A stretch of DNA of 41,966 nucleotides. It comes from Oscillatoriales cyanobacterium M59_W2019_021 (GTDB taxonomy: Bacteria > Cyanobacteriota > Cyanobacteriia > Cyanobacteriales > Geitlerinemataceae). The stretch's first letter is position 1. Every line of letters begins with the position of its first letter. The notes below the pieces were generated by a model that was not told the DNA's origin, made no database searches, and saw nothing but the letters and a program-made list of their open reading frames with translations. This document shows positions 4,612-30,236 of the stretch, one piece after another. Made by a program: the position numbers and the translations under genes. The stretch is taken from NCBI GenBank assembly GCA_015295945.1, contig DVED01000010.1, forward strand, positions 1 through 41,966, in the 5' to 3' direction.

Positions 4612-5247
4612 TTACAGCGGATAAATCAAGCGAAAAGATCCTTCTGCTCCCGGAGGGACGTATTCTAGCTTTTCGAGGGATAGATCGTCAGACATTTCCG
4701 AAATGCGATCGGCAACGGATGGCGTCACCAAAATTTCCCAAGAATCTGCCGTATCTTCTCCCAATTTACTGGCAGCATTCACTTCCGCACCAAAAACATC
4801 GAAATCGCCCAAATTTAAAATTCTGCCGTACCCGATACCGACACATAATAAAATTTGTTCGTTCTCCGGTTTATCTTGATTGTAAACTTTGGCAGTTCGT
4901 TGCATCTCGATCGCGCAAGCTACGGCTTTAGTGGGTTGGCGAAAAATTACCAACATACTATCTCCCTCGATCTTGACTAAAATGCCATCGTGATTGTCGA
5001 TACAGGGGATAAAAATTCGCTGCGATTCGTAAATAATTTGCAGAAAATGGATGATGCCAAATTTTTTGACCGATCGGGAGAAACCTGACAAATCGGTAAA
5101 CATCACCGCCCAAGTTTCCCCAAACAAATCCCAAATTCGAGCGTCGATCGCTGCTTTGTCCGCTCCCGGCTGCAACCGTTCTCGCATGAGCTTTTCCAGG
5201 CGATCGAGATCAGCACTCGGGTAGATGTTCTTGATATTGTATTCCAT
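4612..5247 (-). CDS. Small class III adenylate/guanylate cyclase-domain protein
   Basis: A 211-residue protein that is almost entirely one class III nucleotidyl cyclase homology domain, without transmembrane or PAS/GAF segments. Metal-binding aspartates are present (Asp52 in FTDLSGFS, Asp96 in KIEGDSML), as are the base-contacting Lys92 and Asp150 (the ATP-type pair) and Asn157 in EVNAAS. The usual transition-state arginine of the VNxAsR motif is replaced by lysine (Lys161 in NAASKL). The catalytic ability is therefore uncertain: it may be slow, heterodimeric or a nucleotide sensor. It stands alone between repeat-filled spacers. The domain call is secure; the enzymatic activity is not. Confidence 0.82.
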   Translation of the reverse strand: MEYNIKNIYPSADLDRLEKLMRERLQPGADKAAIDARIWDLFGETWAVMFTDLSGFSRSVKKFGIIHFLQIIYESQRIFIPCIDNHDGILVKIEGDSMLVIFRQPTKAVACAIEMQRTAKVYNQDKPENEQILLCVGIGYGRILNLGDFDVFGAEVNAASKLGEDTADSWEILVTPSVADRISEMSDDLSLEKLEYVPPGAEGSFRLIYPL

Positions 5248-21503: not shown

Positions 21504-22874
21504 ATGAACGTAGAAACGGAAAGCCAACAACTCGAACTTTTTCAAGGTTTTCAACCTAAATCTTCAATTTCTTGTCAATCTAAATTTACGTTTGTCGATC
21601 TATTTGCCGGAATCGGGGGATTCCGGATTCCTCTAGAACAGTTAGGTGGAATTTGTTTGGGATATTCGGAGATTGACAAAAAGGCGATCGCCGTTTACAA
21701 AAAAAACTTTATTCAAGGTAAAAATCACTCGGAAGTTGAGTTGGGAGATATTTCTCAGTTAGATAAACTTCCGTTCGAGATCGATGTAATTGTCGGTGGC
21801 GTGCCTTGCCAGCCTTGGTCGATTGCAGGGAAACTGAAGGGTTTAGACGATCCCAGAGGGCAACTTTGGCTGGATGTCATTCGCATCATTCGATCGAATC
21901 AACCGAAAGCCTTTATCCTGGAAAATGTAAAAGGCTTAGCCGAACCGAGAAATCGACAAAGCTTAAACTATATTTTCGGTCATTTACACGAAGCCGGCTA
22001 TGTCGTTCACGCTCGAGTTTTAAACTCGTATGACTTTGGGTTACCGCAAGATCGCGATCGCATTTTTATTGTCGGCATTCGGAAAGATTTAGAAAACAGT
22101 TGGGGTTTTGCTTTTCCACAACCTTTGAACGAAAAAACAAAACTCTATCGCGTCATCCCGGGAATTCAAGCGGGCGATCGCGTTAAAACCAAGTTTCCGG
22201 TAGAAATTTTATTTGACGGAAAAGTTCCAGCATCGAGAGGTCGCTTTCAAAAAATAGACGAACTCAATGACTTTTTTCTGTTCTCGGATATCCGAGATGG
22301 ACATACCACGATTCATTCTTGGGACTTAATCAACTGTAGCGATCGAGAACGACAAATTTGCCAAACGATTCTTAAAAATAGACGTAAGAAAATATATGGT
22401 GATAAAGATGGAAATCCCTTAAGTTTTGAGATATTAGAAAAACTAATACTCGATCTAAAGTCCGCAGAACTCGAAGCCTTAGTCGCTAAGAAGATATTAC
22501 GATCGATCGAAGGAAAAGGCTATGAATTCGTCAATTCTAAAATTTCCTCTGGTATTGATGGAATTTCTAAAATTTTCTTGCCTCACGCCGACGCGATCGC
22601 CACTTTAACGGCAACTGGAGCCCGAGATTTTGTAGCCACAATTTCAATCCCTTGTCAAGAACCCAAAGCTTATAAGCAAACCTTTATTCGAGAAATCTAC
22701 AGACCCAAAAATTTCAAGCCACTCTCCGCAAGAGATTATGCAAGGTTACAAGGATTTCCTGAAGACTTTCAACTGGCGGAAAATGAAACAACAGCAAAAC
22801 ACCAATTTGGAAATGCGGTATCGATTCCAGTTGTTTACCACTTGTGTAAAGCTCTTTTACCCATTATTTTTTAA
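21504..22874 (+). CDS. DNA (cytosine-5) methyltransferase of a type II restriction-modification system
   Basis: A 456-residue C5-cytosine methyltransferase. Ordered motifs: I (FVDLFAGIGGFRIPLEQLG, 30-48), IV with the catalytic Cys102 (GGVPCQPWSIAG), VI (ENVKGL, 140-145), VIII (LPQDRDRIFIVG, 180-191), a variable target-recognition region (about 200-370), and the C-terminal IX-X motifs (ARLQGFPEDF, HQFGNAVSIPVV). It protects host DNA against the endonuclease encoded 5 bp downstream. Four HIP1 octamers lie inside the gene, as in neighbouring resident genes. The paired endonuclease belongs to the TdeIII family, which suggests GGNCC as target, but the specificity is inferred. Confidence 0.93.
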   Translation: MNVETESQQLELFQGFQPKSSISCQSKFTFVDLFAGIGGFRIPLEQLGGICLGYSEIDKKAIAVYKKNFIQGKNHSEVELGDISQLDKLPFEIDVIVGGVPCQPWSIAGKLKGLDDPRGQLWLDVIRIIRSNQPKAFILENVKGLAEPRNRQSLNYIFGHLHEAGYVVHARVLNSYDFGLPQDRDRIFIVGIRKDLENSWGFAFPQPLNEKTKLYRVIPGIQAGDRVKTKFPVEILFDGKVPASRGRFQKIDELNDFFLFSDIRDGHTTIHSWDLINCSDRERQICQTILKNRRKKIYGDKDGNPLSFEILEKLILDLKSAELEALVAKKILRSIEGKGYEFVNSKISSGIDGISKIFLPHADAIATLTATGARDFVATISIPCQEPKAYKQTFIREIYRPKNFKPLSARDYARLQGFPEDFQLAENETTAKHQFGNAVSIPVVYHLCKALLPIIF

Positions 22875-22879
22875 AGGAT

Positions 22880-23704
22880 ATGGTTGCTATTAGCTCGAAT
22901 ACTCGTGCGAAAACAAAAGGATATTTAGAAGGTTTTATCAAAGGCTTAATTGATGAATATCAAGGGCGAACAGTTGTAGAACCTAGCAGTGGATCTGAGT
23001 ATCTAAAACGAACTTCTAAACAAGGAGAGTTAAAACCATTTCAAGCTGCAATTATTCCTCCTGAGTTGATTCGCATCAATCAATTCGAGAGAGGTTTAAG
23101 CACGAGATTGGGGAATTCTCTTGAAGAATGTGCTCGCTTGATAGCGTTACAACACCATCAAGATGCACGGAGGGGTTTTGATTTAGTCTCAGAAGTCAGT
23201 TTATCTGCATTTGCTGAAGCTGAAAGACAGAAAGAAAGATATGAATCTGCAACTAAGTCTCAAATAGGCAAGCCTTCTTTTGAAGAAATGATAGATTCAG
23301 TATTTAAAGCTGTCTCAACCAAAGATCTGGTTACCAAAAAAGTTCGTGCGGATTTATATATTTTAACTCAAAATGGAACGGAATTTTTATTTGAGATTAA
23401 ATCTCCTAAACCCAATAAAGGACAATGCTTAGAAGTTTTACAGCGTCTATTGAGATTGCATTTGCTTCGCGGATATAGCCGACCTCAACTTCAAGCATAC
23501 TACGCAATGCCTTACAATCCATATGGCTCTCAAAAAAAAGATTATAAGTGGTCGCATGCCTTAAATTACTTACCCTTTGAAGAAACCGTGATTATCGGTC
23601 AGGATTTTTGGAATTTAGTGGGTGGTGAAACGGCTTATGAAGAGTTACTGGAAATTTATCTAGAAGTGGGTCGGGAAAAAAGTAAGTCTATGCTAGATAG
23701 ATAG
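22880..23704 (+). CDS. TdeIII-family type II restriction endonuclease
   Basis: A 274-residue endonuclease encoded directly after the cytosine methyltransferase. A PD-(D/E)xK nuclease core is visible: Asp158 (VRADLYIL), then Glu172 and Lys174 in FLFEIKSPKPNKGQ, followed by QRLLRLHLLRG and AYYAMPYNPYG, segments I recall from TdeIII-type enzymes (prototype site GGNCC). The first about 130 residues are probably used for DNA recognition or dimerisation. The gene is visibly richer in A/T than its surroundings and contains no HIP1 octamer, unlike its methyltransferase. It ends one base short of the convergent cyclase gene. The nuclease family is well supported; site and cleavage position are not. 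Confidence 0.85.
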   Translation: MVAISSNTRAKTKGYLEGFIKGLIDEYQGRTVVEPSSGSEYLKRTSKQGELKPFQAAIIPPELIRINQFERGLSTRLGNSLEECARLIALQHHQDARRGFDLVSEVSLSAFAEAERQKERYESATKSQIGKPSFEEMIDSVFKAVSTKDLVTKKVRADLYILTQNGTEFLFEIKSPKPNKGQCLEVLQRLLRLHLLRGYSRPQLQAYYAMPYNPYGSQKKDYKWSHALNYLPFEETVIIGQDFWNLVGGETAYEELLEIYLEVGREKSKSMLDR

Positions 23705-23705
23705 T

Positions 23706-25184
23706 TTAGCCTTTGGATTTTAAACCAGTTTTCACGTCAGATTTTTTCCCCTTCAACCAATAGGTTTTCATCTCCCCTTTTCCTTTCACGTAAATTTCGC
23801 CGCGTTCTTCTAATTGATATCGATCTTGAAGCCGATCGCGAGTTGACTGACTCACCTGAATTTGTCCGGCAATTCCCGAAGATTCCATGCGCGATGCTAT
23901 GTTAACGGCATCTCCCCATAAATCGTAAATAAACTTTTTAATGCCGATTACGCCAGCAATCGCCGATCCGGTATTGATGCCGATGCGAATTTGCAAATCT
24001 TCACCCGTTGTTTGGCGAAACTCAGCGATCTCCGCTTGCATTTCCAACGCCATATCGGCGATCGCTTCGGCATGGTTTTCTTGAGGAACGGGTAAACCGC
24101 CAGCCACCATATAGGCATCTCCAATGGTTTTGATTTTCTCGACGCCGTGTTTATCGGCAAGGCGATCGAATTTAGAAAAAATTTGATTCAAAATTTTCAC
24201 TAATTCCAGCGGTTGTAACCGAGAGGCTAAAGGTGTGAACCCAACAATATCGGCAAATAAAATCGTCACGTCTTCAAAGTATTCGGCAATAGAACCTGGA
24301 TTTTGCTTGAGTTTAGTCGCAATACTTCGCGGTAAAATATTGAGAAGAAGTCCTTCAGATTTAGCTTTTTCTAAACGCAATTTTTTTTCCGTAAGCACGC
24401 GATCGCTCACATCGGATTGTACGCCAATAAAATGAGTGAGAATGTTATTTTCATCGTAAATGGGAGAGATCGTTAATTCATTCCAAAATGGCGTTTTATC
24501 TTTACGATAGTTGAGTAAAATAACCGTGCAGTGTTTGCCAGAGTCAATTGCTTGGCGGAGGATATCGACTTGAGTTCGATTCGTTTTTTTTCCCTGTAAA
24601 AAACGGCAGTTATATCCCAACACTTCGCTGGCTGAATATCCCGTAATTCGTTCAAAGGCGGGATTGACATAAATTAAAGGCATATCCGGTAATTTAGCAT
24701 CGGCAATGACGATGCCAACACTGCTAGCCGCTAAAGCACGATCGCGCAATTTCACCGCTTCTCGCACCCCAGTTCGATAACTCCCACTTCCTCGCCATGT
24801 ATTTTCCGTTACATCCTGAACGATGCCATAACTCACGCCATTTTCGTAAACCGAAACGCGCCAAGACAGCCAGCGATAACTGCCATTTTTACTGCGATAG
24901 CGGTTCTTATATTCGATAACCGTATCCGAATTAGAATCCGAACATAGCGCTTCCATTTCTTCGGTATAAGCCAAGTCATCGGGATGAACGAACTCAATCC
25001 AAGGACGAGATTTTAACTCCTCGATCGTCCAGCCGAGAGTACTCGTCCATCGATCGTTCAATTCTTGAAAATATCCGTCAGTATTCCGAAGGCACAATAA
25101 GTCTAAAGATAGTTTGAAAAATGCAGATTGAGACAAGTCTAATTGGGTTGAATGAGGTCGGTCGTCCTCATGCAAAAGTTTCAT
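23706..25184 (-). CDS. LOV-domain photoactivated adenylate cyclase (PAS-LOV-class III cyclase)
   Basis: A 492-residue soluble protein with three parts. Residues about 20-128 form a PAS domain (CLRNTDGYFQELNDRW, ending YGIVQDVTE). Residues about 148-262 are a LOV domain with GYNCRFLQG (photoactive Cys193), LLNYRKDKTPFWNELTISP and HFIGVQSDV, all the flavin-contacting motifs of blue-light LOV sensors. A short helix leads to the cyclase domain (about 300-480): FADIVGFT (Asp312), KTIGDAYM (Lys352, Asp356) and YDLWGDAVNIASRMES (Asp421, Asn428, Arg432). Lys352 with Asp421 predicts ATP as substrate, so cAMP made in blue light. This matches the mPAC enzyme known from a Microcoleus. It is convergent with the restriction endonuclease gene. 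Confidence 0.92.
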   Translation of the reverse strand: MKLLHEDDRPHSTQLDLSQSAFFKLSLDLLCLRNTDGYFQELNDRWTSTLGWTIEELKSRPWIEFVHPDDLAYTEEMEALCSDSNSDTVIEYKNRYRSKNGSYRWLSWRVSVYENGVSYGIVQDVTENTWRGSGSYRTGVREAVKLRDRALAASSVGIVIADAKLPDMPLIYVNPAFERITGYSASEVLGYNCRFLQGKKTNRTQVDILRQAIDSGKHCTVILLNYRKDKTPFWNELTISPIYDENNILTHFIGVQSDVSDRVLTEKKLRLEKAKSEGLLLNILPRSIATKLKQNPGSIAEYFEDVTILFADIVGFTPLASRLQPLELVKILNQIFSKFDRLADKHGVEKIKTIGDAYMVAGGLPVPQENHAEAIADMALEMQAEIAEFRQTTGEDLQIRIGINTGSAIAGVIGIKKFIYDLWGDAVNIASRMESSGIAGQIQVSQSTRDRLQDRYQLEERGEIYVKGKGEMKTYWLKGKKSDVKTGLKSKG

Positions 25185-28760: not shown

Positions 28761-30236
28761 TCAAATTTCAAACAGGGTTTTCAGCCGATTCCGAATCCAG
28801 AAAAAGGGCGTTTCTCCAGAAGTTTCATCTGCCAGCAATCCTAACTCTCGTAAAGCTTGCTGCCGTTCGGACAATTTATGGGCAATTTCATCGGCTAAAC
28901 TCGGTTGTTCGGTTAGCAGTTTTTGCAGGTCGTGATGTTCGACAATAAACAGGACGGAATCCTCGATCGTGCGGACGGTTGCCGTTCGCGGCATTCCCAT
29001 TAACAATGACATTTCTCCGAAAAATTCTCCTTGATGCAAGGTGGCGATGTATTGTCCGGCACGTTCGGATATGACCTCAACTGCACCCGTGAGAATGATA
29101 TAAAAAGAGTCCCCCGGATCGGTTTCTTGACACACAACTTGTCCCTTGGGAAACACTTGTCGATATCCGTATTCGATGAGTTTTCGTAGTTCTAAATCCG
29201 TACATCCTTCAAAGTAAGAAATGCGTCGTAGAAGTTCTCTGAGCGTCCAGTTATTCGGAGATTTTACGACGGCAGATGAAGATTCAGAAGGTACAAAATA
29301 AGGTCGATCGTCGCCATCTAAATCTGGATCGATGGATTTTCCGTTACCATTGGTCGTCTCAGCAGAAACGGCGATCGAAGCTTTTAGATTTTCTAAAAGT
29401 GGCGAATCACTATTGCGAATCCAAAGATCTCGTTGGGGAAAGGGAATCACAATATCGTGTTTTCTGAATTCGTATTCGATCCGAAAATTTAAGCTACTTT
29501 CAATAATTTCTTTATCAGGAGGATGATCGATCCAGACTAAGAGTTCAAAGTTTAAGGAACTATCGCCAAACCCAGTAAACCAGACTTTAGGCGAGGGATT
29601 GCGGAGAATGCCTTTTTCTAAATGCGCGACGGCAATTAAAGCTTCGGTGACGATCGCGGGGTCGGTTCCGTAGGCAACGCCAACGGGAATGTGCAAGCGA
29701 CATCGCGGATCGCAATAGCTCCAGTTAATGACTTTTCGATCGACAAAGTGACTGTTAGGAATGATCGCGAAAACACCATCGAGCGATCGAATAACGGTAG
29801 ACCGAAATGAAATTTTTTCAACCGTCCCCAACAAGTTATCGATTTCAATAAAATCACCCACTTTCACCGGACGCTCGAATAATAAAGTCAGACCGCTAAT
29901 AAAATTACTCGATAGATTTTGCAGTCCGATCCCAACTCCCAAACCGACAACCCCGGCAACGACGGCTAGGGAACTCAGATCGATTCCCAAACCGTGTAAG
30001 ACGACGAGAGAACCAAAGGCGGCAATGGAATAACTGATCACAGAAGTAATGGCTTCTCGAGATCCGCGATCGAGTCCCATTTTCGTTAAAAACCAACGTC
30101 CGATCGCCCGACCGATAAGATTGGAAAGTAGAAAAACGCAAAAGGCAAAAAACACTAATTTAAAAACGATCGCAATGGAAATGGGTTGATCTCCGAGATA
30201 AACGATCGGCGTTCTAAAAAGTTGATAAAAATTCAT
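28761..30236 (-). CDS. MscS-type mechanosensitive channel with a cyclic-nucleotide-binding domain
   Basis: A 491-residue channel. Two transmembrane helices (about 20-48 and 65-90) precede the Gly/Ala-rich pore helix typical of MscS (LAVVAGVVGLGVGIGLQNLS, about 90-109), followed by FERPVKVGDFIEI and the cytosolic beta domain (to about 275). A low-complexity linker leads to a CNB domain at about 338-440. Its phosphate-binding cassette reads GEFFGEMSLLMGMPRTATV, including the phosphate-contacting Arg417 and a Thr next to it. This is the bCNG class: channels derived from MscS and gated or tuned by a cyclic nucleotide. A LOV adenylate cyclase is encoded 3.6 kb away on the same strand. An M48 protease gene follows closely. 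Ligand choice (cAMP or cGMP) is not certain. Confidence 0.92.
   Translation of the reverse strand: MNFYQLFRTPIVYLGDQPISIAIVFKLVFFAFCVFLLSNLIGRAIGRWFLTKMGLDRGSREAITSVISYSIAAFGSLVVLHGLGIDLSSLAVVAGVVGLGVGIGLQNLSSNFISGLTLLFERPVKVGDFIEIDNLLGTVEKISFRSTVIRSLDGVFAIIPNSHFVDRKVINWSYCDPRCRLHIPVGVAYGTDPAIVTEALIAVAHLEKGILRNPSPKVWFTGFGDSSLNFELLVWIDHPPDKEIIESSLNFRIEYEFRKHDIVIPFPQRDLWIRNSDSPLLENLKASIAVSAETTNGNGKSIDPDLDGDDRPYFVPSESSSAVVKSPNNWTLRELLRRISYFEGCTDLELRKLIEYGYRQVFPKGQVVCQETDPGDSFYIILTGAVEVISERAGQYIATLHQGEFFGEMSLLMGMPRTATVRTIEDSVLFIVEHHDLQKLLTEQPSLADEIAHKLSERQQALRELGLLADETSGETPFFWIRNRLKTLFEI

Follow-up and report, generated by a model that had tools for sequence, protein, structure and literature searches.

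Blue-light control of class III adenylyl cyclases is known from the BLUF photoactivated cyclases bPAC and OaPAC, whose sensor is a flavin-binding fold different from that of LOV domains and works without a cysteine adduct. The closest described system is mPAC, a fusion of LOV sensor and adenylyl cyclase (LOV-AC) from the cyanobacterium Microcoleus chthonoplastes PCC 7420, reportedly the work of Raffelberg et al. in 2013. mPAC is 483 amino acids (aa) long, a length that leaves about 140 residues, room enough for an N-terminal PAS domain (N-PAS), before its LOV domain. Blue light raises the activity of the enzyme about 30-fold (PMC9614035; PMC8522238), and it shows high dark activity (PMC8522238), from which it follows that the regulatory range of the LOV-AC family may be small.

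The window analysed here, a stretch of 41,966 nucleotides from Oscillatoriales cyanobacterium M59_W2019_021 (contig DVED01000010.1), carries a gene for a PAS-LOV-adenylyl cyclase (PAS-LOV-AC) at 23706..25184 (-), delimited by its open reading frame (ORF; start ATG, stop TAA, product of 492 aa) and by domain search. The product resembles mPAC in fusing a LOV sensor to an adenylyl cyclase, in its cyanobacterial origin and in length (492 against 483 aa). The same layout is found at another locus, L159, in an ORF of exactly 483 aa, whose likeness to mPAC is one of length and layout only. Sequence comparison points, with a probability that we put at about 0.88, to a soluble adenylyl cyclase of the mPAC type that blue light switches on. 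The observed part of this reading comprises the domains, the residues, the fixed linker length and the family-wide conservation.

Sensor and catalytic domains

The LOV domain (residues 146-262; 24399..24749 (-)) is identified both by Pfam, which places PAS_9 at residues 156-261, and by alignment with solved LOV domains. Its top matches among PDB sequences are the LOV domains of sensor histidine kinases and phototropin (best E value 1.6e-38), with the GxNCRFLQ and N-Y-R-K-D...FWN...Q motifs aligned. The domain holds GxNCRFLQ with the adduct cysteine and the Asn/Asn/Gln/Arg flavin contacts, the flavin-contact and adduct residues present being N192, C193, R194, Q197, R210, N225, N235 and Q256. 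GYNCRFLQG occupies residues 190-198 of the protein, LLNYRKDKTPFWN residues 223-235 and FIGVQSDV residues 252-259. Cys193, the predicted flavin-adduct cysteine, lies within the first of these and is encoded by a TGC codon read out at 24606..24608 (-); an earlier note on this DNA had named the loss of this cysteine as fatal to its proposal, and the cysteine is present.

The class IIIa adenylyl cyclase catalytic domain (AC; residues 301-480; 23745..24284 (-)) is assigned from Pfam, from its residues and from its relatives. It matches Guanylate_cyc (PF00211) at residues 301-479 with an E value of 3.2e-69, and resembles adenylyl cyclases 8, 9 and 5 as well as bacterial adenylate cyclases. The two metal Asp, the purine Lys/Asp, the transition-state Asn/Arg and the phosphate Lys expected of the class are all found (D312, K352, D356, D421, N428, R432 and K467), and the purine-binding pair is of the ATP type. 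Asp312, Lys352, Asp356, Asp421, Asn428 and Arg432 had been named, together with the LOV segments, as intact, and each indeed stands at the number given for it in the 492-aa translation.

Conservation was assessed over 27 proteins, the window's and 26 loci fetched from genomes of an order-wide sample that were positive for LOV-ACs. The seven catalytic residues are invariant throughout. In the alignment with other LOV cyclases that had been proposed as a check, 14 of the 15 flavin-contact and catalytic residues never vary, and the remaining one shows a single substitution, Asn235 to His. The LOV domain is the most constrained (47 of 117 positions invariant, compared with 56 of 180 in the AC domain and 19 of 109 in the N-PAS). 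PAS-LOV-AC homologues in other genomes are 59-69% identical across almost the entire protein, which places the observation far beyond chance; the related genes confirm that this gene is real and constrained. The proposal of a LOV-regulated adenylyl cyclase has good support from sequence, with the canonical LOV and ATP-type class IIIa residues complete here and conserved across the 27 proteins. The Asn235 to His change is carried by the second PAS-LOV-AC copy of genome G555 (L161:8937-10436 (-)), so that at least one copy there may be spectrally altered.

The N-PAS (residues 20-128; 24801..25127 (-)), supported by Pfam, PDB-sequence matches and conservation, has a PAS_3 fold without the LOV cysteine; Pfam places PAS_3, the second PAS of the protein, at residues 42-121. 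The earlier note had described it as an extra domain. Its presence at about residues 20-128 stands, but not its being special to this protein: other PAS-LOV-AC relatives carry it at the same place, 49-68% identical over residues 20-128, and as a family trait it was rejected as a novelty. Several Trp and Arg residues (W46, W52, W62, W105, W108, R104 and R109) are invariant in the family. Among PDB sequences the PAS domain of a diguanylate cyclase scores best (8px4, E 2.4e-9), the rest being mostly ARNT- or HIF-type PAS domains, and these matches give no specific support for a haem- or flavin-type domain. The N-PAS is standard in the PAS-LOV-AC family and most likely serves in structure or dimerisation, or else senses some ligand. 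In the nearest relative, from genome G553, the reading frame is interrupted within the N-PAS, shortly before an intact LOV-AC (L173:968-2500 (-)); this genome is a draft, 61% complete, and the break may be an assembly fault.

Linker register and the light response

The LOV domain lies directly N-terminal of the AC domain and is joined to it by a coiled-coil linker of 21 residues, or three heptads (D258-G278, DVSDRVLTEKKLRLEKAKSEG; 24351..24413 (-)), followed by the cyclase-transducer element LLLNILPRSIATKLKQN (residues 279-295; 24300..24350 (-)), recognised from its sequence. Measured from the D-x-S/T motif that ends the LOV domain to the LLLNILP transducer element, the linker is 21 residues long in 27 of 27 LOV-ACs, including L160 and L174, where this value is counted from the last D-x-S/T, the automatic search having started at a motif further upstream. 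Insertions of 9-10 residues in L178 and L179 are located after the transducer element. Cyanobacterial non-LOV PAS-adenylyl cyclases have an AC domain 45-70% identical and the same linker to the transducer element (21 residues in 29 of 31 distinct linkers, 28 in the other two), whereas their cyclase-adjoining PAS is devoid of the GxNCRFLQ motif. The pattern is that of a heptad rule, by which sensors would be exchanged on a fixed coiled coil.

By analogy with what is known of LOV domains and class III cyclases, the LOV domain would hold a flavin (FMN in mPAC) and blue light would drive formation of a Cys193-flavin adduct. The resulting strain would pass through the Gln256 strand to the C-terminal helix and on to the three-heptad parallel coiled coil, which would twist the cyclase-transducer element such that the two catalytic domains of a homodimer close on ATP and produce cAMP. 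The adduct would then decay thermally and the enzyme switch off. We infer flavin binding, dimerisation and ATP turnover, as well as the direction and magnitude of the light response and the function of the N-PAS. A single-sequence AlphaFold prediction of the 492-aa protein gave an unusable model (mean pLDDT 33).

Given that the same 21-residue linker also serves light-blind PAS-cyclases, the register alone does not reveal the sign of coupling, and a photoactive LOV domain might belong to a cyclase that light inhibits, or whose response is set mainly by the N-PAS and merely modulated by light. The family-wide retention of the N-PAS with its invariant Trp and Arg residues is in keeping with such an arrangement. 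We nevertheless consider it very unlikely, as mPAC, the characterised LOV-cyclase, is activated by light and the N-PAS is the least constrained of the domains, with 19 invariant positions in 109 against 47 in 117 for the LOV domain. Activation by blue light is thus the preferred reading. The LOV-AC set, with a three-heptad linker shared by light-blind homologues, offers a direct test of the rules of in-register coupling between LOV domains and effectors, and, because mPAC is leaky in the dark (PMC8522238), a source of alternative optogenetic cAMP tools.

Distribution and other LOV-cyclase layouts

Genome searches scored the best four candidates per genome in a class-wide sample of 390 genomes and an order-wide sample of 391, both drawn from larger groups. 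Four of the 390 class-wide genomes hold a LOV-cyclase, with matches at 1e-186 or better, the next match standing at 1e-102. Order-wide, 22 of the 391 genomes hold a LOV-cyclase at the cut-off of E <= 1e-120; 21 of these hold the PAS-LOV-AC form, and G598 has only a cyclase in which a receiver precedes the LOV domain (REC-LOV-AC). The spread is uneven: of the 14 genomes listed for the window's own family, just this one and G553 have LOV-ACs. The statement that natural LOV-cyclases are few therefore applies to characterised proteins, mPAC being the sole one in the literature found, but not to genomes, given 22 of 391 in the order. About two dozen natural LOV-adenylyl cyclases are added here to that single protein. 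The AC-domain tree is poorly resolved, and a single LOV-AC clade is not rejected (p-AU 0.208).

REC-LOV-ACs, with an intact receiver followed by intact LOV and AC domains, are found at L177:8970-10454 (-), L175:8951-10441 (-) and L176:1596-3101 (-), with PF00072 confirmed in L176 and L177 and the receiver Asp sitting in a LILLDVMMPG motif. Their closest scaffold relatives, judged by sequence, are REC-PAS-ACs of the same length class, about 55-60% identical, with an ordinary PAS in place of the LOV domain, and REC-LOV-ACs are apparently natural PAS-to-LOV swaps. Genomes G427 and G497, which hold a REC-LOV-AC, also hold a 59-60% relative. A tandem-LOV cyclase, PAS-LOV-LOV-AC, occurs at L174:8927-10705 (-), with two NCRFLQ motifs, one per LOV domain. 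To our knowledge, which is not exhaustive, no characterised protein has either layout; the window protein adds to the known mPAC kind, and these two layouts are the more novel. More generally, cyanobacteria might repeatedly build light-gated cyclases by in-register replacement of PAS by LOV on a ready coiled-coil-cyclase scaffold, REC-LOV-AC, in which one enzyme would read both phosphorylation and blue light, and PAS-LOV-LOV-AC included. The window protein would be one member, and its N-PAS would supply a true second input, a generalisation that we regard as tentative and rather doubtful.

Genomic surroundings

Downstream of the cyclase gene lie a DNA C5-methylase and a TdeIII-type restriction endonuclease (21504-23704 (+)), the second of which converges on the cyclase gene, so that one base separates the two stop codons. 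Upstream lies a divergent ABC transporter, the sole neighbour that recurs in place across the relatives' flanks, and then in G553 only (81% identical); a conserved operon was on this account rejected.

An MscS-type channel whose C terminus carries a cyclic-nucleotide-binding domain is encoded 3.6 kb from the cyclase gene and on the same strand (28761-30236 (-)). That its cyclic-nucleotide-binding domain scores highest of 15 in the genome might suggest a dedicated cAMP-gated target of the blue-light cyclase, an idea to which we give almost no weight: the ABC transporter gene intervenes on the opposite strand, the genome has 14 further cNMP-binding-domain matches, and no other LOV-AC locus has the channel in the fetched flanks, several of which are on short contigs. 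Of 382 genomes of the order, 114 have channel homologues (E <= 1e-100), and most of these do not figure among the genomes with a LOV-AC; with none seen near other LOV-ACs, the channel is not proposed as a dedicated partner. As the neighbours are mostly unconserved, its proximity is probably incidental. The cAMP made by the cyclase can be read all the same, since the genome has 15 cNMP-binding and 17 class III cyclase matches. Elsewhere in the window, a 211-aa protein (4612-5247 (-)) that matches the cyclase domain weakly (E 8.6e-12) lacks a YDLWG-like segment and keeps FTDLSGF and EGDSM, and is possibly a degenerate or divergent cyclase.
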